From NCBI GenBank assembly GCA_903911145.1, contig CAIWCD010000039.1:62001-126000 (forward strand): a DNA stretch of 64,000 bases, in the 5' to 3' direction. Positions within the stretch are counted from its first letter, which is position 1, and each line of letters begins with the position of its first letter. Origin of the DNA: an uncultured delta proteobacterium (lineage in GTDB: Bacteria > Myxococcota > Myxococcia > Myxococcales > 40CM-4-68-19). Below the pieces are notes generated by a model that searched no databases, was not told where the DNA came from, and worked only from the letters and a program-made list of their open reading frames with translations. Positions 3,157 to 13,807 of the stretch are shown in pieces. The translations under genes were made by a program, and so were the position numbers.

Positions 3157-3834
3157 TCAGTGGCCTGCGCGCGTCGTCGCGGCCGGATCGCTGCCGAGAT
3201 GAGCCGTGTCGTTCCAGAGGCGGATGAACGGAGGCTTGCCCGCGCGCAACTCGACGAGATTGAGCGCGCACTCGTCCTGCGCAATCTGCTTTCGGTAGTT
3301 CGCGAGCCGCGCACCGAGCAACGCGCAGGCGAGAATGCGCAGCGTCGCCTTGTGCGAGACGACGAGGACCGGATCGTTGGTATGCAAACGATCGGCGTCG
3401 CTGCGCTGTGCGTCTTCGTGTCTCGCGCGAATGGTCTCCAGCGCCGCGAGTGCGCGCGTCGCCACATCTTGCGCGGTCTCGCCATTGGGCGGCGCGTTCG
3501 CGACAGGATCGTCGTGCCAGGCCTTGAACAGCACAGGCGAGCGCGCTTCGGCCTCCGCGGGCGAGTGGCCCTCCCAGTCGCCGTAGTTGATCTCGATGAG
3601 GCCCGGCAGCGTGATGAGCTGCGAGGCAAACGAAGGCGCGACGAGCGCGGCTGTCTCGCGCGTGCGGTCGAGCGGCGAGCGATAGACCGCTGCGAATTTC
3701 ACATCCGCGAGTCGCTTGCCCAGCGCCGCCGCCTGCGCGCGCCCGGTTTCGGTGAGCGGCAATTCGCGCTGGCCGTTGAACGAATCGATCGCGGACGAGG
3801 CCGTCTGCGCATGGCGGATCAGATAGAGCAGCAC
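3157..3834 (-). CDS. histidine phosphatase family protein (phosphoglycerate-mutase fold)
   Basis: A 225-residue acid phosphatase or mutase of the RHG superfamily. The phospho-accepting His sits in LIRHAQTAS at residues 5-13, the second catalytic Arg in YRSPLDRTRETA, and the second His in VVSHKATLR. It starts with GTG (3834) behind AGGA. Family members include cobalamin phosphatase CobC, GpmB and metal-independent phosphoserine phosphatases; the substrate here is not fixed by motifs. It faces serB with a 13-base gap, which raises but does not prove a link to phosphoserine. Confidence 0.88.
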   Translation of the reverse strand: MLLYLIRHAQTASSAIDSFNGQRELPLTETGRAQAAALGKRLADVKFAAVYRSPLDRTRETAALVAPSFASQLITLPGLIEINYGDWEGHSPAEAEARSPVLFKAWHDDPVANAPPNGETAQDVATRALAALETIRARHEDAQRSDADRLHTNDPVLVVSHKATLRILACALLGARLANYRKQIAQDECALNLVELRAGKPPFIRLWNDTAHLGSDPAATTRAGH

Positions 3835-3891: not shown

Positions 3892-4884
3892 CTAGCGGTT
3901 GGGCAGAAAATGTTCGCGCACGTACTGCACGGTCTCAGACAGCGTCTCGAACGGATCGCGCGCGCGAAAGCCGAGGACGCGTTCCGCCTTCGAGGCATCG
4001 ACGAAAAACCAGCACTCGCCCATCTCGACATCGGACGCCGGGATGTCCGGCTCGCCGCCGCGCGCGTGGGCCCACTTCTCGAGCAGATGGGCCGCGCCGA
4101 TCTTGAGCACGCTCGGCAGCTGCAGCCGCGGCGGAGGCACGTCGGCGATGCGGGAGAGGCGCGCGAAGAACTCCGAGAACTCCCAGTTGACCGCGCCGAG
4201 CAGATGCCTCTCGCCCACGCTGCCCATCGTCAGCGCATTCGCGAACGCGTGCGCCGCATCGCGGACATCGACGAAGGAGATCCCACCGCGCGGCATTGCG
4301 GGGATGCGCTGCTGGAGAAAACGGAAGATGTCCTGCGTGCTCGACAGACGCGCATCGCCCGGACCGAGAAGCAGCGAAGGATTGAGCACGACGACGGGCA
4401 GCCCGCGCTTCACAAACTCGAGCGCGAGTTTCTCCTCGTAGATCTTCGAGAGGTAGTAGGGCCAGTGGCCCACGGTCTCGATCGGATAGTCGTCGGCCTC
4501 GGTCGCGACGCGGCGCGTGCGGGAGACGCCGATGGTTCCCGACGACGAGGCGAGCACGATGCGCGTCACCTTCGCTTGCAGCGCGGCTTCGAAGAGCAGG
4601 CGCGTGCCCTCGACGTGCAGATCGTACATGAGGCGCGCGTCGGCGGGATCGCGCGAGACGCGCCCGGCGAGGTGGTAGAGCGCGTCGATTCCAGAGAGAG
4701 CGCGCGCAGCGAGTGCGGGATCGCGCAGATCGCCGCGGACGATTTCGCAGCCGAGCGCCTCGGCCTCCGGTGCGGCTCCGCGCGCGACGATGCGCACGCG
4801 GTGTCCGCGCTCGATCAGCAGCGGGACGAGCGCGGTGCCGAGGAATCCGGTGGCGCCGGTGACGAGGATCTTCTGCCCGCTCAC
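3892..4884 (-). CDS. extended SDR (NAD-dependent epimerase/dehydratase, 3-beta-HSD/OleD-like)
   Basis: A 330-residue oxidoreductase with the N-terminal Rossmann motif TGATGFLGTAL (residues 9-19), the DLRD and LAGRVS core motifs, Ser in ASSSGTIGVS, and the catalytic YYLSK (Tyr...Lys). The family reduces or epimerises sugars, sterols and beta-keto acyl groups. GTG at 4884 overlaps the stop of the upstream fusion gene as GTGA, with GGAG seven bases before it, so translation is coupled. Context points to reduction of a lipid intermediate made by the upstream fusion enzyme rather than to sugar chemistry. Substrate unknown. Confidence 0.85.
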   Translation of the reverse strand: MSGQKILVTGATGFLGTALVPLLIERGHRVRIVARGAAPEAEALGCEIVRGDLRDPALAARALSGIDALYHLAGRVSRDPADARLMYDLHVEGTRLLFEAALQAKVTRIVLASSSGTIGVSRTRRVATEADDYPIETVGHWPYYLSKIYEEKLALEFVKRGLPVVVLNPSLLLGPGDARLSSTQDIFRFLQQRIPAMPRGGISFVDVRDAAHAFANALTMGSVGERHLLGAVNWEFSEFFARLSRIADVPPPRLQLPSVLKIGAAHLLEKWAHARGGEPDIPASDVEMGECWFFVDASKAERVLGFRARDPFETLSETVQYVREHFLPNR

Positions 4885-7800
4885 GACTCATCTCCCGTCG
4901 CGTGCTCTGCGTGCGCGAGCGCTTTCACCTCGAGCGCGCGCGGCTCGATCTTCGGCGGCGGCGTTCCATCGCGCAGCGCCTCGACCGCCTTCTGCACCAG
5001 CCGCGTGATCTCCCGGTGCGCCGCCGAGCGCGACATCCCTTGCGTGGCCAAACGCAGCGCGGCCACGCCCAGCGCGGGTCCGACGCGCACGATGAGCTTC
5101 TTGCGCTTGCGCGGATCGGGCGCGAACGCACCCTTGGGCATCGCTTCGTGCGCGCCGTCGATGAAGACCGGCAGGATGTCCGCGCCGGCCGTCAGCGAGA
5201 GATAGCCAATCGCCGGCTTGAACTCGTGCAGCTTCCCGTCGGGCGAGCGTGTCCCCTCGGGAAAGATGAGCAGGTGATGGCCGAGCTCGAGCGTGCGCGC
5301 GGCCGCTCGCAGCGACTCCTTGAGCGAGCCCTTGCGATCGAGCGGCACGAGGTTGGTGAAGTTTCCAAACCAGGCCCGCTTCCACGGGTTGTCGAAGAAG
5401 TAGTCGCGCGCTGCGAGCGAGGCGAGCTTCTCCCCTTCGTCGCCGAGCGCCAACTTCACGAGGCCAACATCGAGATGGCTGTTGTGATTGGCCGCGACGA
5501 GGAACGCAGCGTGCGAGGGCACCAATCCCTTGCCGGTGATCTCGATGTCGAAGAGGCCGTTGAAGAGTGCGCTCTGCGCCAGATCGATTGCAGCCCGACC
5601 CGCAGCGGCGATGCTCGAGGGAATGCCGATCTCCTCGCTCTTCGTCGCGGCCTGGGTCGATTCCTCGTCGCGCCCGCGGGTGATCTTCGCGTCGCCCTTT
5701 CGCTCGCCAAGCGCCTGCAGGAGATCGCGCGCCGTGCCGATCGACGAGAGGCGCGCCTCGTCCGGCGGCTTGTAGCCGGCCTTCTCCAGCGCGACCGCCA
5801 GCTCGGCGACGAGCAGAGAATCGAAGCCAAGATCCGCGACCAGACGCGTCTCGGCGTGCACGGATGCGAGGGGCTTCTGCGACAACTCGGCCAGCAACTC
5901 GAACAGCCAGCCGTCTCCCGAGCGCGCCTCCGCGCTCTTGAGCTTCAGCCCTGCACTCGACGCGCGCTCGAGCCGCAACAGCTCCTCAAGAACCTGCGGC
6001 CGCTTGATCTTGCGCGTCGCAGTCTTTGGCAGCGGGCCGTCCCAGAAGTGGAGAATCTTGACCCGCTTCCAAAAAGGAAGTGCCGCCGAAATCTCCGCAA
6101 AGTGGCGCTCAGCCTGGGCGCGCAGCGATTCGCGCGTTTCGCCGTCCGCCTGAGTGGATCCTGAAATGCTTTGAGTGCCAACCATCTGCTTCGGATCGCG
6201 CACGACACACAGACAGGCGATCCGCTCGTGACCTTTTCCGTCGGGAAGCCCGACGATGCAGAGCTCGCTGATGAGTCCCGCGTCATCGCGGCAGGCGCCG
6301 TAGAGCTCCTCGAGTTCGTCGGGATAGACGTTCTTTCCCGAGGCATCGAGGATGACGTCCTTCTTGCGCCCGACCAGCGTGAGCGCGCCGTCGGGTGAGA
6401 GCTTTCCGAGATCACCGGTATGCAGCCAGCCGTCGATCAGCGTGCGCGCGGTTGCCTCGGCGTCATTGAGATATCCGGCCATCACATTGGGGCCGCGCGC
6501 GATCACTTCGCCAACGCCCTCTGCGTTCGCGCCGTCGATCCGCAGTTCCACGCCAGGCAAGGCCGGGCCGACCGTGCCGGGCCTGCGCGCGTTCTCTGGA
6601 ATCGTCACAGCGAGCACGGGAGCGGCTTCGGTGAGTCCATAGCCCTCGGTGAGATCGAAGCCGAGCTGGTGGAACGCCTCGTGGATGTCGTCGGGCAGCG
6701 CGCTGCCACCGGAGACGAGCAGCCGCAAGCTGCCGCCGAACTTGCGGTGGATCGGCCAGAAGAGAAGCTTGCCGAGATTGAACCGCGTGCGGTTGCGCAG
6801 CTCTCCATGCAGCGCCATTGCCGCCTGCACGGCAGCCTCGACGAGGCGCGGCTGCGCGGCGAGCTCCTGCGTGAGGCGCCGGTGCAGGAGCTGCCAGAGC
6901 GCGGGAACACCGACGAGCGCGTGGACGCGGCCATTCTCGAGCGCGTCTCCGAGGCGCTCCGCCGTCAGCTCGTCGAGATAGGTGATCTCCGCGCCGAGCG
7001 AGAGCGGCACGAGCAGGCCGCACGTGAACTCAAACGTGTGGTGCAGCGGCAGCACCGAGAGCACGCCCTCGCCGACGTTGAGATCGAAGAGGTTGGCGAG
7101 CTTGCCCGCGAGCGATGCGAAATTCCGGTGCGTCAGCAGCACGCCCTTGGGCGTCCCCGTCGTGCCCGAGGTGAAGAGCAGCGAGGCGAGATCGTCGGCG
7201 GCGGCACTGGTGCGCAGCGGCGGCATCTTCGCGCCGTTGATATCAAGCCCAGCCTTCGGCGCGTCCGCCGGGATACCGCGCAGCAGCTCCCCGAGCGGGA
7301 TTGCGGTGATTCCTGCTTCCAATGGCCCGAGCCGTTCCAATACCCGCGGGCTTGCAAGCAGCAGCTTCGCGCCGGCGGCCTTCGCGCAGTTCATGACCTC
7401 GGCGAGCGAGAGATTGGCGTCGAGTGGCGCAACCGCGAGGCCGGCTTTGAGCGCGCCGAAATAGGCCATTGGCCATTCCGGGCGATTCTCGCTCATTAAA
7501 AGAACCCGCTCGCCCGCGCGTGCGCCCGCATAGAGAAGCCGCTGGCCGGCGCGATCGGAGAAGAGGGCCAGCTCCGCATAGGTCACGCGATCATCGCGCG
7601 TGCGCGAGAGCTCCTGCTGTTCGTCTTCGCCCGCATAGAAACGCAAGGCCGTGCGGCTCGCATTCGCCTCGACCGAGGCTGCGAGCAGCTGGAGGAGATC
7701 CTTGCTCTGCGGCGCATCCCGCTTGAGTTTGCTGCGCTCCTCCTCGAGGCCGGGGAATACCCATTCCTCGAGACCGGCCATATGCACGTCGAGCCAATAG

Positions 7801-9404
7801 ACGCGCCAATCAATCGACTCTGGCGCCCAGTTCAACTTCTCGCGATCCGCCGCTGAGAGCTCGCTCCAGAGTTCGCGCGTATGCGTGCTCTGGAAGACGA
7901 ATCGCTCGCCCGCGACGAAGGGCATGAAGAGTTCCCAGCCGCCTTCCAACTGCGCGAGTTGTCGATCAATCCCATCAATCGCCTGGTCCGCGCGCGAGGC
8001 CAGCGCGGAGAGAACCGGCATTCCCCAGAGGCCGCCGTCGGCGCCCTGCGCGAGAAGTGTCCGCGCTCCTGCCGCGAGCTTGCGAAAGAGCGGCGCTGAG
8101 GTCGCGCGATAGACCGCGGGAGGAATCGAATAGGGCTCAAGCCATTCGTCGAACCACTTCTCCATCACGCTGCGGCTTGGCGCGCCGCTGCGCTTGAAAT
8201 ATCGCCGCTTATAAAGCGCCATCAATTCCACGGCACGGCGAACATAGAGCGGATTCACGTCGCCGGAGCAGAGTTGATAGACGCTTTTGGCGCGCCCGAC
8301 GCAGGCAGCACCGGCGATTCCGATCATCGCCGCCGCGACCATATCAACGGGGATCAAGTCGAGGATTAACTGGTGGCCTGCGGGATAAGCGCGGTGGCCT
8401 TTTAATGCCATGAAGACCAGCGGCGCGCTGGTGGTAAATCCCTCATTCCAACCGGGGAACGGATAGGAGAGCGCGCTCTCGACAATTGCCGGGCGCACGA
8501 GCGAATAGTTGCAGCCGCTCTCGGCGATCGCCTGCTCGCCCATTGCCTTTGTATAGGTATAGGTATTCGGCCAACCCCACGTCTGGGCGCGGGCCATCCC
8601 GGCGTCAATCAACTGCTTCGATAACCAGAACTTCCGTTCTCTTCCGACCGCGAGGCGCAGCGCCTTTTCATCCTCGGGATTGCGCCCTTCTCCCTCGAGC
8701 CTGCGCACGGCTGCGGCGCGGAATCCAGCCGCGAGCGCCGCATCGTCGGCCTGTGCGCGCAGTCGGGCGACGAGCGCATCGACATCTTTTAATTCAGCGT
8801 CGACCGAGAACCGCGCGCCCTCCATCTTCGCGCTCTCGTCGTGGCGCTTGGGAAAACTGCCCACGACCGGCTCATCCTCGAAGACCGGCCCGCGCCGCGC
8901 GCCCGCGACAAAGCAGGTCGAGATATGCACCAGCGTCGCGCCAGTCTGCTTGCAGAGCGCGGCCGCGTGCTTGGCGCCTTCGGTATTGACCGAAACTGCC
9001 AATTCAAGGGAGGGGTCGAAGGTCACCAGCCCCGCGGAGTTGATGACGCACGAGAGTTTTCCGGTCAGCGATTGAACCGTCTGTTCGTCCAATCCCAACA
9101 TCGGATCGGTCACGTCTCCGGCAAGCGCATTACACTTCGAGCGGATATAGGCGTCGAACTGATCGCCATACTTCGCGCGCAGAGGGCGAAAAGGCTCCGC
9201 GGTCACGACCTTGTTATAGAATCGCTCGTCCGCCGTACCCCCCGAGCGCGGGCGCACCAGCACATGCACGCGGCCGATCTCGGGGTATCGATCGAGCAGC
9301 ATGACCAGCGCGACCTTGCCGAGAAAGCCTGTGACGCCGGTGATTAAAACCTCGCGCCCGCGAAAGGCCTCGGTCAGGTCGATTTGCGGCAACGTCTCGC
9401 TCAC
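4881..9404 (-). CDS. four-domain fusion: fatty acyl reductase / AMP-ligase / acyl carrier / PlsC acyltransferase
   Basis: One 1507-residue chain. Residues 18-440 form an NAD(P)-binding reductase of the fatty acyl-CoA or thioester reductase type: TGVTGFLGK at 23-31 and YTYTK at 282-286. Residues 600-1140 form an AMP-forming acyl ligase with LLFTSGTTGTPKG near 742, EGYGLTE and GWLHTGD. A carrier domain follows with DLGFDSL, where Ser1196 would hold phosphopantetheine. Residues 1280-1460 form a PlsC-like acyltransferase with NHNSHLD at 1306-1312 and FPEGTRS at 1381. The set could activate, tether, reduce and esterify one fatty acid. A multifunctional enzyme with related activities, ElbD of myxobacterial ether-lipid synthesis, is known to me, but identity with it is not established. 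The GTG start overlaps the stop of the LarA-like gene. Confidence 0.93.
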   Translation of the reverse strand: MSETLPQIDLTEAFRGREVLITGVTGFLGKVALVMLLDRYPEIGRVHVLVRPRSGGTADERFYNKVVTAEPFRPLRAKYGDQFDAYIRSKCNALAGDVTDPMLGLDEQTVQSLTGKLSCVINSAGLVTFDPSLELAVSVNTEGAKHAAALCKQTGATLVHISTCFVAGARRGPVFEDEPVVGSFPKRHDESAKMEGARFSVDAELKDVDALVARLRAQADDAALAAGFRAAAVRRLEGEGRNPEDEKALRLAVGRERKFWLSKQLIDAGMARAQTWGWPNTYTYTKAMGEQAIAESGCNYSLVRPAIVESALSYPFPGWNEGFTTSAPLVFMALKGHRAYPAGHQLILDLIPVDMVAAAMIGIAGAACVGRAKSVYQLCSGDVNPLYVRRAVELMALYKRRYFKRSGAPSRSVMEKWFDEWLEPYSIPPAVYRATSAPLFRKLAAGARTLLAQGADGGLWGMPVLSALASRADQAIDGIDRQLAQLEGGWELFMPFVAGERFVFQSTHTRELWSELSAADREKLNWAPESIDWRVYWLDVHMAGLEEWVFPGLEEERSKLKRDAPQSKDLLQLLAASVEANASRTALRFYAGEDEQQELSRTRDDRVTYAELALFSDRAGQRLLYAGARAGERVLLMSENRPEWPMAYFGALKAGLAVAPLDANLSLAEVMNCAKAAGAKLLLASPRVLERLGPLEAGITAIPLGELLRGIPADAPKAGLDINGAKMPPLRTSAAADDLASLLFTSGTTGTPKGVLLTHRNFASLAGKLANLFDLNVGEGVLSVLPLHHTFEFTCGLLVPLSLGAEITYLDELTAERLGDALENGRVHALVGVPALWQLLHRRLTQELAAQPRLVEAAVQAAMALHGELRNRTRFNLGKLLFWPIHRKFGGSLRLLVSGGSALPDDIHEAFHQLGFDLTEGYGLTEAAPVLAVTIPENARRPGTVGPALPGVELRIDGANAEGVGEVIARGPNVMAGYLNDAEATARTLIDGWLHTGDLGKLSPDGALTLVGRKKDVILDASGKNVYPDELEELYGACRDDAGLISELCIVGLPDGKGHERIACLCVVRDPKQMVGTQSISGSTQADGETRESLRAQAERHFAEISAALPFWKRVKILHFWDGPLPKTATRKIKRPQVLEELLRLERASSAGLKLKSAEARSGDGWLFELLAELSQKPLASVHAETRLVADLGFDSLLVAELAVALEKAGYKPPDEARLSSIGTARDLLQALGERKGDAKITRGRDEESTQAATKSEEIGIPSSIAAAGRAAIDLAQSALFNGLFDIEITGKGLVPSHAAFLVAANHNSHLDVGLVKLALGDEGEKLASLAARDYFFDNPWKRAWFGNFTNLVPLDRKGSLKESLRAAARTLELGHHLLIFPEGTRSPDGKLHEFKPAIGYLSLTAGADILPVFIDGAHEAMPKGAFAPDPRKRKKLIVRVGPALGVAALRLATQGMSRSAAHREITRLVQKAVEALRDGTPPPKIEPRALEVKALAHAEHATGDES

Positions 9405-11080
9405 GGCTTGGCCTGCGCCGGGGTCGCGGATGCGCTCTGCGCGAGCTGCTTCTTTTCCTCTTCCGCCGTCAGCGTCACGTCGGTCATGACCATCGGCGGA
9501 TGGTGCATGAGAGAGATCTCCGCGCTGCGTCCCTGCTTGCCGCGCGCCATATCAATCGCTTCCGCGAGCGTATCCGCGCGCTCCCAGCCGAGCAGCGCCG
9601 GTACGTGGGTATTCTCGGTGCCGACGGCAATCACCTGGCCGATATGCTGCCGACCATTCTCGCCCCAGTACCACATATAGAACGGGTGGGCGCCGTGATA
9701 GGCGTTCCCCTTTCGATATAAGTGCACATAGCTGGGGTTCTGCGCGAACTCCTTCTCATACTTGCGGTGCAGCTCCATCGCGTCGCGCGTCTCGGGCAAT
9801 AAACGATGGAAGAATTCGATATAGCTCGGGTGCTGCACCGGATCGAACTCGTCCATGCAGGGATGGGTGATAATCAGCGTCCCGCCCTTCTTCACCAGCG
9901 GGATCCCGCGCGTCATATTGAAGAAGTATCCCTGCGCCATCACCTGCACGAGCAGCGGATTGAGCACCGCGCCGACGTTATAGGGCGAGATATAGGGAAT
10001 TCCGCAGATGAGGATATCGGCCTGGCCCTTGACGGAGATGAACGACTGGCGACGGCAGGCCTCAAGGATCTTCTCATGCGTCGGCTCGGTGCGGCCGGCG
10101 TGCACGGCGATTAATCCATAGGCCGCCGGGACGCGATTGAAGATCTGCTGGCGCAGCGCGCGCGGGGTCTTCTTCAAGGTCCAGCGCAGCGCCTCGAGGC
10201 CGACGCGATCGAGGTCGGAGAAATCCTCCTCGCGCTTGCCGAGGAAGCCGAGCGGCCCATCGAACATCTGGTTGTTGAGCGCCGTCTCGATATGAAAGAC
10301 GTTGCAATGCTCGTCGATCATCTTCCCGATGCGATCGACCGACTCGTGCAGCTTGGAGTGGCGCGGCTCCATATAGCTCTTGCTGCCGCGGATGGCGCCC
10401 GGGTTGTGATGCGCGCGCAGGCCGAGATAGTCGGTTAATCCCGTTCCGACGCTCTTATGCCCGCCGTCCATCGGGACGAAATTCACATTGAGATAGATGA
10501 CGAGATCGGCCTCGACCGCGCGGCGATTGACCCGCACGCGCTCGCCCTTCTCGGTGACGCCGAGTTCGGTAATGCCGCCCGGCTCCTCTGCGTCGTGATT
10601 AAAATAGTTGTCCGGATAGTAGGCATTAAAAATCTTCTCGCCCACCATCCGCTTCATTTCCGCTTCGGTCATGCGCCGGTGGAGCGCATTGGCGATGCAG
10701 AGTTGGATATCGTCGACGCCACTGTCGGCGCAGAGCTGGAGAATGATCTCGAGCATCAGCTGCCGCACGTCGGGCGTGCGCATCGGAGGCAGGGGCAGCG
10801 AGATATCGTCGATGGCGATGAGCAGCTTCATCCCGGGCTTGAGCTGCGCGTGGAGCGGGTCGCAGCCTTCGGGGTGATTGATTGCCCAGCGGATGGCCGC
10901 GCGATAGTTCGTCAGCGGCGCGATTGGTGGGTTGGGAAAGATGACGCGGGTGCCGACCGGGATCTCTTCGAGGAGAACCTCAGAGTCGGAGAAGAGCATG
11001 CGCGGCGGCGAGCGCTTGTCCTGGATGACGACTTGCGAATCATCGTCGTAGCTCTGGCGGAGACGGTCGAGCGAGCGCAT
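9401..11080 (-). CDS. LarA-like protein (DUF2088, lactate-racemase family)
   Basis: A 559-residue member of the LarA superfamily, whose founding enzyme racemises lactate with a nickel-pincer cofactor. The expected landmarks are present in order: IDDISLPLPP near 90 (place of the family DxTRPTP motif), ALHRRMTEAE (His134), NHDAEEPGGITELG (162), and GGHKSVG with Lys209 in the position that carries the cofactor in LarA, followed by a HH pair. It is longer than LarA (about 420), with extra C-terminal sequence. Start ATG 11080 has GAAGGA upstream; longer N-terminal extensions look non-coding. It is the first gene of a set of three with GTGA overlaps. The true substrate is unknown; no larB, larC or larE lies in the window. 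Confidence 0.82.
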   Translation of the reverse strand: MRSLDRLRQSYDDDSQVVIQDKRSPPRMLFSDSEVLLEEIPVGTRVIFPNPPIAPLTNYRAAIRWAINHPEGCDPLHAQLKPGMKLLIAIDDISLPLPPMRTPDVRQLMLEIILQLCADSGVDDIQLCIANALHRRMTEAEMKRMVGEKIFNAYYPDNYFNHDAEEPGGITELGVTEKGERVRVNRRAVEADLVIYLNVNFVPMDGGHKSVGTGLTDYLGLRAHHNPGAIRGSKSYMEPRHSKLHESVDRIGKMIDEHCNVFHIETALNNQMFDGPLGFLGKREEDFSDLDRVGLEALRWTLKKTPRALRQQIFNRVPAAYGLIAVHAGRTEPTHEKILEACRRQSFISVKGQADILICGIPYISPYNVGAVLNPLLVQVMAQGYFFNMTRGIPLVKKGGTLIITHPCMDEFDPVQHPSYIEFFHRLLPETRDAMELHRKYEKEFAQNPSYVHLYRKGNAYHGAHPFYMWYWGENGRQHIGQVIAVGTENTHVPALLGWERADTLAEAIDMARGKQGRSAEISLMHHPPMVMTDVTLTAEEEKKQLAQSASATPAQAKP

Positions 11081-11165: not shown

Positions 11166-13088
11166 TTACAGCGCCCACGTGCGCAAGCAGCAGAGGCCGT
11201 GCAGCGCGAGCGCAAGCGAAAGCGAGGCAGCGCAGAGGCTGCAGAGAAGCGCGTGTGCGCGGACGGCGCGGGGAGCGGCGTTGGCTGCGTGCATGACCGA
11301 GAGGGCGCGCAGCGACTCGAGCAGCGCCGCGAGCGAGAGCGCCGGGAAGAGCGTGGAGAGCCCGCAGAGCAAATAGGTCGTGAGGTTCGGCGAGCCGAGC
11401 GGCGCGTGCGACAGGCCCAGCAGCACCGCCTGATCGACCAGCACCAGAGCAGCGAGCGCGGGCAGGGCGCGCAGCCGTAGAGTGGGCGAGTTCTTCAGCG
11501 CGCCGAAGAGGGCGCTTGGCAGCCAGAGCAGGGCGAAAAGCAGAGACGAGAGCAGCGAGAGCAGCGCGAAGAGCACCAGCGCGAGCCGGCCGTACGCGAC
11601 GAACGCGGAGCTGCGCAGATAGGTGGCATCGGGAGTGACGAACTCGTCTCGGCCATTGCGGGAGACGAGCTGGAAGGTCGCCGGTCCCATGGCGCCGGTT
11701 GCGAACGTGCCATTGCCCGTCGGTGTGAGGGTCTGTGCCGGGCCGAAAGAGGCGCTGAAGGTGAAGCTCTCGGGCCCGCCGCGCACGACGGCGAAGCCGA
11801 GCAGCTCCTCGAAGAAGCGCATCGCCTCGAGACGGGGCGAGGCCTTGCGCCAGACTCCCGCGAGTGACGCGCTGCTCGTGGCCGCGCTCGTCGGCGGGGC
11901 GGCTCGCGGTGAGAGCCGCGCGAACGGCCGCAGAAGCACACTCGCCGCCGCTGAGGAGATCTCGGCGAGCGCGTCGCGATTCTCCGCGTTGAGCAGCACC
12001 GCGTAGCCGAGTTTCTCCTCTGGATAGAAGGCCAGCTCCGCCGCGTTGCCCGAGAAGACTCCGCTTGCGCCGACCCGGCGGCGGCCCTCGACAACGTCGA
12101 CGCGCGTGCCGAGTCCCGCGGCCGCGATCGCAAGGCCGCGCGTCGTGCCTCGTTCGATGCGCGACATTCCCGACGGCGCCAGGAGCGGCTTTCCGCGCGC
12201 GGGACCACTTCTGGCCACTCCGTCGTGCGTCAGCATTTCGAGCAGCGACGCGAGGTCCTGCGCAGACGAGATGAAGCCGAGCGCGGGCCAGTGCGGCACC
12301 GGCCGCCAGGGAAGCGACTGTCCGCCGCGATGGCCGAGCGCGAGCGCCTCCTGCTGCGCGAGGTCGGGGCGGAACGTGGACGCGGACATTCCCAGCGGCC
12401 GGAAGATCTCGCCGTCGGCGATGGTGAAGAACGGTCGACGCGTCCAGCGCTCGAGCTGCAGCGCGGCCGCGGTGACGCCCACCCGCGAGGGCGAGAAGAG
12501 CTCCCCCGGCGCATTGCGCGTTTCGTGTGCGCGCAGATGCATCACGTCGGGCAGGAGCGGCGTCTGCTCATTCGAGTAGAGCAGCTCCACCGGCGCGAGA
12601 TCCTCGAGCCCCGCGGTCTGCTCGAGCAGCGCGGAGAGCGTGATCGGATGGATCGCGTGAAACGGATTCGACAGCCCGAGGCTTGCAGCATCGAGCGGTT
12701 CATCGAGTGCCGCGCGCGGCTTGTCTCCCGCCTTCTCGGGCTCCTCGACCATGCCGGCGTATCGCGCAGCGAGCAGCCCGACGATCAGCGGAGAGATCGC
12801 TGCGGCCGCGAACGGCGTGTTCTGCGTCGTCTGCGTGCCGCGCGAGCGATCGGAGAAACCAAACCCGCCGAGCCAGACGACGCCGTCTTCATTGACGAGC
12901 GCGATGGCAGCGCCTTGCACGTTCTCGCGCAACATCGTCGCCGCGACAGCCTTCTGCATCAGCGCGATCTGATCGTCCGGCGCACCGTGCGCGACGGTCG
13001 GCGCATCCGGCGCCGCCGGTGCTGCGACATCGGCGTGTGCAGGAAACGCAAGCAGGGTGCAGGCGAGAGCTGCTCGGGCGAGGCGCAC
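11166..13088 (-). CDS. membrane-anchored beta-lactamase-fold protein with degenerate active site
   Basis: The 640-residue chain has a signal peptide (VRLARAALACTLLAFPAHA), a serine beta-lactamase/PBP4*-like domain to about residue 390, and four hydrophobic helices at the C-terminus. The fold is recognisable from GVVWLGGFGFSDR, ALLEQTAGLEDL and GYAVLLNAEN. The catalytic motifs are changed: S-x-x-K is SPLI (99-102), Y-x-N is PSR in the PGELFSPSR segment, HTSG is QTAG, and the C-terminal H-x-G is ASG. It is therefore probably a binding or scaffolding pseudoenzyme in the periplasm. GTG at 13088 follows GAGG and lies just behind the stop of the HAD gene; an ATG at 13115 would overlap that gene. 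Substrate or partner unknown. Confidence 0.75.
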   Translation of the reverse strand: MRLARAALACTLLAFPAHADVAAPAAPDAPTVAHGAPDDQIALMQKAVAATMLRENVQGAAIALVNEDGVVWLGGFGFSDRSRGTQTTQNTPFAAAAISPLIVGLLAARYAGMVEEPEKAGDKPRAALDEPLDAASLGLSNPFHAIHPITLSALLEQTAGLEDLAPVELLYSNEQTPLLPDVMHLRAHETRNAPGELFSPSRVGVTAAALQLERWTRRPFFTIADGEIFRPLGMSASTFRPDLAQQEALALGHRGGQSLPWRPVPHWPALGFISSAQDLASLLEMLTHDGVARSGPARGKPLLAPSGMSRIERGTTRGLAIAAAGLGTRVDVVEGRRRVGASGVFSGNAAELAFYPEEKLGYAVLLNAENRDALAEISSAAASVLLRPFARLSPRAAPPTSAATSSASLAGVWRKASPRLEAMRFFEELLGFAVVRGGPESFTFSASFGPAQTLTPTGNGTFATGAMGPATFQLVSRNGRDEFVTPDATYLRSSAFVAYGRLALVLFALLSLLSSLLFALLWLPSALFGALKNSPTLRLRALPALAALVLVDQAVLLGLSHAPLGSPNLTTYLLCGLSTLFPALSLAALLESLRALSVMHAANAAPRAVRAHALLCSLCAASLSLALALHGLCCLRTWAL

Positions 13089-13090
13089 GG

Positions 13091-13807
13091 TCACCTCAGA
13101 TCGAGAATCGGCCACTCGTACGCGAGCGCATGCGAGCGCAGCGCTCGATCGGGGTTGACCGCGCAGGGCCGCCCGACGACCGCGAGCATCGGATAGTCAG
13201 AGAGGCTGTCGGAGTAGGCGTGCGAGAGATCGAGGCGCAGCTTGTTCTCGATGCAGTAGTCGCGGATGCGCCGCGCCTTGTGCGCGCCCTCGACAATCGG
13301 CGGCACCACTTTTCCCGTCGCGAACCCCTCGACGAACTGCAGGCTGTTGGCGATCAGATCGTCCGCGCCGAGATGTTTCGCGAGCGGCCGCATGGTGATG
13401 TCGATGGCGCCGGTGCAGAGGATGATCTTGCAGCCGGCCCGCCGCGCCTCGCTGATGATGTCGAGAGCGCCCGGATAGACCGCAGGGATGAAGACCTTCT
13501 CGCTGAGCTCGTCGGCGAGTTCGATCAGCCGGTCCTGCGAGAGGCCCGCGTACGAGCGGTAGAACAGCTCGTTGAACAGCTTGCGGTTGAGCGCGTTCGT
13601 CGCTGCCCACGCAGGCGCCATCGCGAGGCCCTGCATCACGCGCAGCGCGGTTCCGAAGATCGTCCCGCGGTTGAAGACGTAGTGCGCGTAGGCGTGGACG
13701 ACGTTTGTGCTGACGAGCGTGCCGTCGACATCGAAGAACGCCGCGCGCTCCCACTGCTGGAGCGCGGGCGGCGTCGTCGCTGCTGCGTGGGTCGTTGGCT
13801 GGGTCAA
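13091..13807 (-). CDS. HAD-IB family hydrolase (SerB-like phosphatase)
   Basis: A 238-residue cytoplasmic phosphatase of the HAD subfamily IB. The nucleophile motif FFDVDGTLV is at 24-32, motif II is in CTGAIDITM, Lys in KVVPPIVEGAHKARR, and motif IV is the acidic YSDSLSDYPML. Related enzymes act on phosphoserine-like or lysophosphatidate-like substrates. The only start ahead of the fold is TTG at 13807, 12 bases after the preceding stop, so the N-terminus is uncertain. It lies between the Bax-inhibitor-like gene and the degenerate hydrolase in one transcription direction. Confidence 0.87.
   Translation of the reverse strand: MTQPTTHAAATTPPALQQWERAAFFDVDGTLVSTNVVHAYAHYVFNRGTIFGTALRVMQGLAMAPAWAATNALNRKLFNELFYRSYAGLSQDRLIELADELSEKVFIPAVYPGALDIISEARRAGCKIILCTGAIDITMRPLAKHLGADDLIANSLQFVEGFATGKVVPPIVEGAHKARRIRDYCIENKLRLDLSHAYSDSLSDYPMLAVVGRPCAVNPDRALRSHALAYEWPILDLR

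Follow-up and report, generated by a model that had tools for sequence, protein, structure and literature searches.

A LarA-superfamily protein is the ElbC component of the elb ether-lipid operon and occurs strictly together with ElbD in the sampled Myxococcota genomes

Results

Three overlapping genes are elbC, elbD and elbE

The window analysed here, a stretch of 64,000 nucleotides from contig CAIWCD010000039.1 of an uncultured delta proteobacterium (Myxococcota, Myxococcales), carries on its minus strand three consecutive genes that a first-pass annotation, made from the sequence alone, had described as a lipid-type operon joined by two GTGA overlaps. Both overlaps are present, the stop and start codons sharing four bases at 9401-9404 and again at 4881-4884. 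The first gene (9401-11080, with an ATG at 11080) encodes a LarA-superfamily protein of 559 amino acids (Pfam Lar_N, 118.8 bits). The second (4881-9404, GTG start) encodes a 1507-residue fusion of fatty acyl reductase, acyl-AMP ligase, acyl carrier and PlsC domains, and the third (3892-4884, GTG start) a 330-residue extended short-chain dehydrogenase/reductase (SDR) of the NAD-dependent epimerase-dehydratase family (Pfam Epimerase, 108 bits). These genes are elbC, elbD and elbE of the elb ether-lipid operon of myxobacteria.

In the published description of the Myxococcus xanthus operon (Lorenzen et al., 2014, via PMC9131029), elbA and elbE each encode an NAD epimerase, elbB a HAD phosphohydrolase and elbD a FAR-ACS-ACP-acyltransferase, and elbC is listed as unknown. 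Inactivation of ElbD leads to a strong drop in ether lipids and inactivation of elbE to a drop, and the products of the operon, alkyl-ether glycerolipids, have no hydroxy-acid head (PMC9131029). Insertions in elbA leave the ether lipids unaffected, so that elbA is accessory. The window resembles this operon in the domain order of ElbD, the SDR ElbE, the position of ElbC, the tight overlaps and the presence upstream of an elbB gene (13091-13807, minus strand) for a HAD-IB phosphatase (Pfam HAD), which lies 2 kb from elbC on the same strand with one gene between them. It differs from the M. xanthus operon in that the intervening gene, of the beta-lactamase family, splits elbB from elbC, and in that no elbA SDR is found upstream of the operon. 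No elbA was seen next to the operon at the Acidobacteriota loci either, so that ElbA is not one of its defining parts.

The LarA-like gene was identified as elbC because named myxobacterial loci reproduce the published layout. The order SDR-HAD-LarA-ElbD-SDR, or that part of it which the contig holds, is found in Myxococcus vastator, Myxococcus sp. CA023, M. dinghuensis, several Corallococcus, Pyxidicoccus fallax and two Anaeromyxobacter, and in M. vastator (locus L060) the elb genes overlap as they do in the window. Conservation of the three-gene order across many genomes excludes a chance arrangement, and the LarA-like gene stands beside the fusion in many genomes and not only in this one, a check that had been proposed with the first-pass annotation. 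An elbB orthologue directly precedes elbC in Myxococcus, Corallococcus, Anaeromyxobacter and Blastocatellia, and of all the genes in the operon these two seem to be the most tightly paired. The ether lipid, one of the unusual lipids that had been suggested as the product of the trio, thus matches the elb operon, whereas synthesis of a wax ester or alkyl ester was dropped as needless once this match had been made. It had also been remarked that known pathways of this type offer no evident place for the LarA-like protein; it had in fact already been drawn in the elb operon, as ElbC, albeit as a protein listed as unknown.

The Pfam domains of ElbD run in the order NAD_binding_4 (fatty acyl reductase), AMP-binding, PP-binding and Acyltransferase, which is both the order and the set of the published ElbD, FAR-ACS-ACP-AT (PMC9131029). 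The core motifs, described as intact from the sequence, are so: Y282 and K286 of the reductase, TSGTTGTPKG of the ligase, Ser1196 of the carrier, and H1307, D1312 and EGTR of PlsC. Among 42 ElbD proteins from two phyla the reductase Y/K pair, the ligase Lys753, the carrier Ser, and the PlsC H/D pair and EG are invariant. ElbE follows ElbD immediately, an arrangement conserved in myxobacteria and Acidobacteriota.

ElbC is related to single-histidine LarA proteins

ElbC matched NCBIfam NF052592 (LarAH14/15/16, a family of the lactate racemase superfamily; Desguin et al., 2020, PMC7583248) over its full length with 810.9 bits, above the equivalog cut-off of 740, and the ElbC proteins of Myxococcus, Anaeromyxobacter and Blastocatellia scored 839-852. 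Like groups 14 and 15 (PMC12611868) it lacks the equivalent of His174. The LarAH14/15/16 groups themselves have no activity or pathway assigned, and the elb context of ElbC supplies a pathway.

Profile alignment to solved LarA proteins placed D92, L95, H134, N200, K209 and H225 of ElbC at the positions of D72, Arg75, His108, His174, K184 and H200 of LarA, respectively. D92, H134, N200, K209 and H225 are invariant in all 81 aligned ElbC orthologues, which come from two phyla, and K209 and H225, which correspond to the tethering lysine for the nickel-pincer nucleotide (NPN) and to the nickel-ligand histidine, are 16 residues apart. The first catalytic histidine of the racemase mechanism (H134) is therefore kept and the second is replaced by Asn (N200) throughout; position 95 is only ever L, V or M, so that the carboxylate-binding Arg75 is replaced in every orthologue. 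As the second histidine and the arginine are both gone, ElbC should not be a 2-hydroxyacid racemase, and the earlier idea that the LarA-like protein supplies or epimerises a hydroxy-acid head is not supported.

The AlphaFold model of ElbC (mean predicted local distance difference test score, pLDDT, 87.6) had as its nearest fold in the PDB the single-histidine LarA 9q3k (Z 40.2, 2.2 Å over 454 residues), followed by LarA and malate racemases with Z of 28-31 (29.3 for the LarA 5huq). A Pfam scan gave no FAD_oxidase_C match, and the fold is that of LarA and not of an FAD-linked oxidase. The single-histidine LarA proteins of Streptococcus plurextorum and Blautia wexlerae (9q2u/9q3k and 9q3j; PMC12611868) are the best match to ElbC in both sequence and fold, have kept the NPN lysine and the nickel histidine and are likely to have Asn at the second catalytic histidine. 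They differ in sharing only ~20-23% identity with ElbC, in carrying Lys at the Arg75 position where ElbC has Leu, Val or Met, and in their gene context, which is that of sugar phosphate metabolism. Such relatives are reported to be without lactate racemase activity, to have genes lying near those for triose- and hexose-phosphate metabolism, and to show an unidentified phospho-sugar-like ligand (PMC12611868). Sequence and model together suggest that ElbC is most likely a putative LarA-fold enzyme with one catalytic histidine that carries NPN. Searches for ElbC gave no match in the plasmid collection and no family in PHROGs.

A few Myxococcota encode a second LarA-like protein (L045:8116-9645, L046:8191-9702, L047:8465-9964 and L048:8666-10141), 25-32% identical to ElbC, in which the NPN lysine motif is lost; the two that were scanned scored ~343-347 bits, under the LarAH14/15/16 cut-off. 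These are probably cofactor-free relatives.

Homologues of the proteins that supply NPN are encoded in the genome of the window: the genes for LarB (258 bits) and LarC (395 bits) are neighbours on one contig, and that for LarE, which scored above its cut-off, is on another. ElbC is the only Lar_N protein of this genome, and LarC was found in 98 of the 99 ElbC-bearing Myxococcota genomes described below.

ElbC and ElbD occur in the same sampled Myxococcota genomes

To compare the distribution of the two proteins, 146 Myxococcota genomes were scored for an ElbC orthologue (at least 53% identity) and for ElbD (E<=1e-100). Both were present in 99 genomes and neither in 47, with no discordant genome. 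The two genes were adjacent in 75 of the 99 and lay on different contigs in 19, where both had still been kept. Since absences occur inside a single family (f3, in genera g9 and g25 and in one g27 genome), ElbC and ElbD appear to have been lost or gained jointly and repeatedly.

The named scan yielded 80 ElbC loci, 34 of them labelled Acidobacteriota (Blastocatellia, Pyrinomonadaceae, Vicinamibacteraceae and others), the Acidobacteriota examined being the genomes behind the fetched ElbC loci rather than a sample of the whole phylum. According to PMC10087280, the entire elb operon is present in several subdivision-4 Acidobacteria. Among the loci with 6.5 kb or more of sequence beyond ElbC, a complete ElbD followed on the same strand at all 21 from Acidobacteriota and at 24 of the 35 others. 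ElbD was located elsewhere in 23 of the 24 genomes whose ElbC locus had no complete ElbD, the exception being G157 (locus L083). At L056, L063, L068, L083, L095 and similar loci, which ElbD has left, elbC and the gene for the HAD phosphatase are still adjacent. Pairwise distances of ElbC and ElbD were closely correlated (r=0.95, 42 genomes), and in the same genomes ElbC was the better conserved, with a mean identity of 67% as against 51% for ElbD.

Most elb-bearing Acidobacteriota appear to lack AGPS

Deletion of alkylglycerone phosphate synthase (AGPS) in M. xanthus has only a minor effect on ether lipids, and the AGPS operon, MXAN_1674-1676, also holds a fatty acyl reductase-acyltransferase fusion (FAR-AT) and an SDR (PMC9131029). 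The two operons thus share their partner proteins and the kind of ether-lipid product, and ElbC takes the position that AGPS holds among these partners. AGPS is, however, a flavin adenine dinucleotide (FAD) enzyme unrelated to ElbC, and the elb route works without it. AGPS was not found at E<=1e-40 in 22 of 24 elb-bearing Acidobacteriota or in either of the two Anaeromyxobacter tested. Among the 99 elb-bearing Myxococcota genomes 25 had an AGPS match at the stricter E<=1e-60, a cut-off that coincides with the values of the Myxococcus homologues, so that some may have gone undetected. PlsAR/Ger, which also makes bacterial ether lipids, by anaerobic reduction of ester to ether, consists of different proteins, none of which was seen in the operon of the window.

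Genes neighbouring the operon

The beta-lactamase-family gene between elbB and elbC (11166-13115, minus strand; Pfam Beta-lactamase) lies outside the conserved operon, and none of the 80 orthologous loci gave a match to it. The gap between elbB and elbC is also widened, to about 2-7 kb, in the closest relatives (L053 and L054). On the other side, 57 bp downstream of elbE, lies a gene for a histidine phosphatase (3157-3834, minus strand; Pfam His_Phos_1), which among the 80 loci was matched after elbE solely in L053 and L054, the closest two whose sequence extends this far; it is possibly co-transcribed with the elb genes. The upstream neighbour of elbB encodes a Bax1-I protein, according to the Pfam scan of the window proteins.

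Discussion

The operon itself was already known. New, relative to the literature searched, are the assignment of ElbC to the LarA/NPN-type proteins and its strict tie to ElbD in occurrence, although the original 2014 elb paper may carry an annotation of ElbC. Taken as a whole, the explanation that we consider probable is that the locus is an elb operon in which ElbC is an NPN-type enzyme obligatory for the route, with a hidden-redox step on glycerol phosphate as its proposed reaction.

In the elb route, the ligase of ElbD activates a fatty acid, its carrier domain holds it, the reductase reduces it and the acyltransferase serves the glycerol backbone. For the NPN occupancy, the substrate and the step of ElbC we infer the following scheme. 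ElbC would have NPN tethered to K209 and nickel on H225, with H134 as the sole acid/base. The NPN step was placed at the glycerol-phosphate backbone or the ether bond because ElbC occupies an AGPS-like position in the operon, because most elb-bearing Acidobacteriota appear to be without AGPS, and because the residues for carboxylate binding and two-sided racemisation are gone. The NPN may take a hydride from C2 of the glycerol-phosphate backbone, after which the fatty chain derived from ElbD could be joined at C1. Here a fatty alcohol might take the place of an acyl group, in the manner of AGPS acting on acyl-dihydroxyacetone phosphate, or the hydride might be delivered to a hemiacetal of the fatty aldehyde that depends on ElbD. 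The resulting alkyl-dihydroxyacetone phosphate might then be reduced by ElbE, a keto/aldehyde-type SDR reductase. Transient oxidation at C2 that enables substitution at C1 is established chemistry in hidden-redox enzymes such as S-adenosylhomocysteine hydrolase. That ElbC itself catalyses formation of the glycerol ether bond, or directly makes it possible, in this way and without AGPS is a tentative proposal, and we think it unlikely to be right in just this form.

Several observations weigh against the explanation given above. The elb match rests on congeners of M. xanthus and the published description, M. xanthus DK1622 being outside the genome set, and the Fisher value of 2e-39 for the co-occurrence of ElbC and ElbD overstates its significance, as the genomes are related. 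In M. xanthus, elbD on its own gives partial rescue of an elbB insertion (PMC9131029), and it is a fatty aldehyde, the i15:0 aldehyde, and not an alcohol, that has been tied to ElbD. The only group-14 protein assayed, LarAH14 of Frankia, had none of the activities tested (lactate, malate, hydroxyglutarate and others; PMC7583248). Over a dozen Myxococcota genomes (G043, G095, G116, G133, G134 and others) have LarC with no detectable Lar_N protein, so the presence of LarC is no proof of NPN on ElbC, and its conservation was rejected as such; the finding hints at other NPN clients or at another role of LarC. The LarE gene of this genome (C48:107829-108592; loci L136 and L142) is split over two frames by an apparent frameshift, for which an assembly error and real damage are both possible. 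Finally, the genome has an AGPS homologue of its own (C13:26983-28641; L139 and L141; E 5.5e-98 to the Dictyostelium AGPS in the PDB), although no FAR, acyltransferase or SDR match lies in the 17 kb around it. That this organism depends on elb alone for its ether lipids was rejected on account of this separate homologue.

With these points in mind, other roles for ElbC have to be considered. The one we take most seriously, although we would not expect it to prove correct, is that ElbC binds NPN and acts at another step of the route, either in epimerising or isomerising a triose or glycerol phosphate or in passing hydride between an aldehyde and an alcohol. The occurrence of single-histidine LarA relatives with sugar-phosphate genes (PMC12611868) would fit this, as would the dependence of the i15:0 aldehyde on ElbD and the conserved elbB-elbC pair, by which ElbC stays linked to a HAD phosphatase even at loci that ElbD has left. 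However, ElbE and the reductase of ElbD could already cover simple redox steps, and the absence of AGPS from most elb-bearing Acidobacteriota would leave the ether-forming activity missing. A more conventional role, as a true NPN-dependent racemase or epimerase of a 2-hydroxyacid (glycerate, lactate or a 2-hydroxy fatty acid) destined for a hydroxy-acid head or chain, would agree with the superfamily and fold that ElbC shares with lactate and malate racemases, with the hydroxyacid isomerase label of NCBIfam, and with the conserved NPN lysine, nickel histidine and one catalytic histidine. We regard it as improbable given the replacement of the second histidine by Asn and of Arg75 by Leu, Val or Met in all 81 orthologues, the inactivity of the Frankia protein on such substrates and the lack of a hydroxy-acid head in the known elb products.

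It is also conceivable that ElbC has lost NPN and serves ElbD as a LarA-fold subunit with a structural or regulatory task. A complex would suit the strict co-occurrence and the gene overlap, some LarA-like paralogues in the same phylum are without the NPN lysine, and LarC occurs in the absence of LarA proteins. But the NPN lysine, the nickel histidine, the ribose-binding Asp and the catalytic His are invariant in 81 orthologues over two phyla, and LarB, LarC and LarE homologues are present in a genome whose only LarA protein is ElbC; we regard this role as unlikely. Least credible is that ElbC is a mere passenger sharing the operon. A direct test of its function is absent from the literature searched, but none of the 146 genomes has one gene alone, including the 19 with the genes on different contigs, and ElbC is better conserved than ElbD, so that we give this idea almost no weight. 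The obligatory NPN-type enzyme proposed above remains the reading that we prefer.

The link between ElbC and LarA joins two questions, the origin of AGPS-free ether lipids in myxobacteria and some Acidobacteria and the reaction of the LarAH14/15/16 groups, and makes both of them testable. Together ElbC and ElbD provide a genome marker for AGPS-independent ether lipids, which helps to assign the ether-lipid biomarkers of soils and sediments to their producers. If it is true that ElbC acts in ether formation, this would be a third bacterial route to ether lipids, independent of both AGPS and PlsA/Ger, and the ElbC step would be the first NPN reaction other than hydroxyacid isomerisation.

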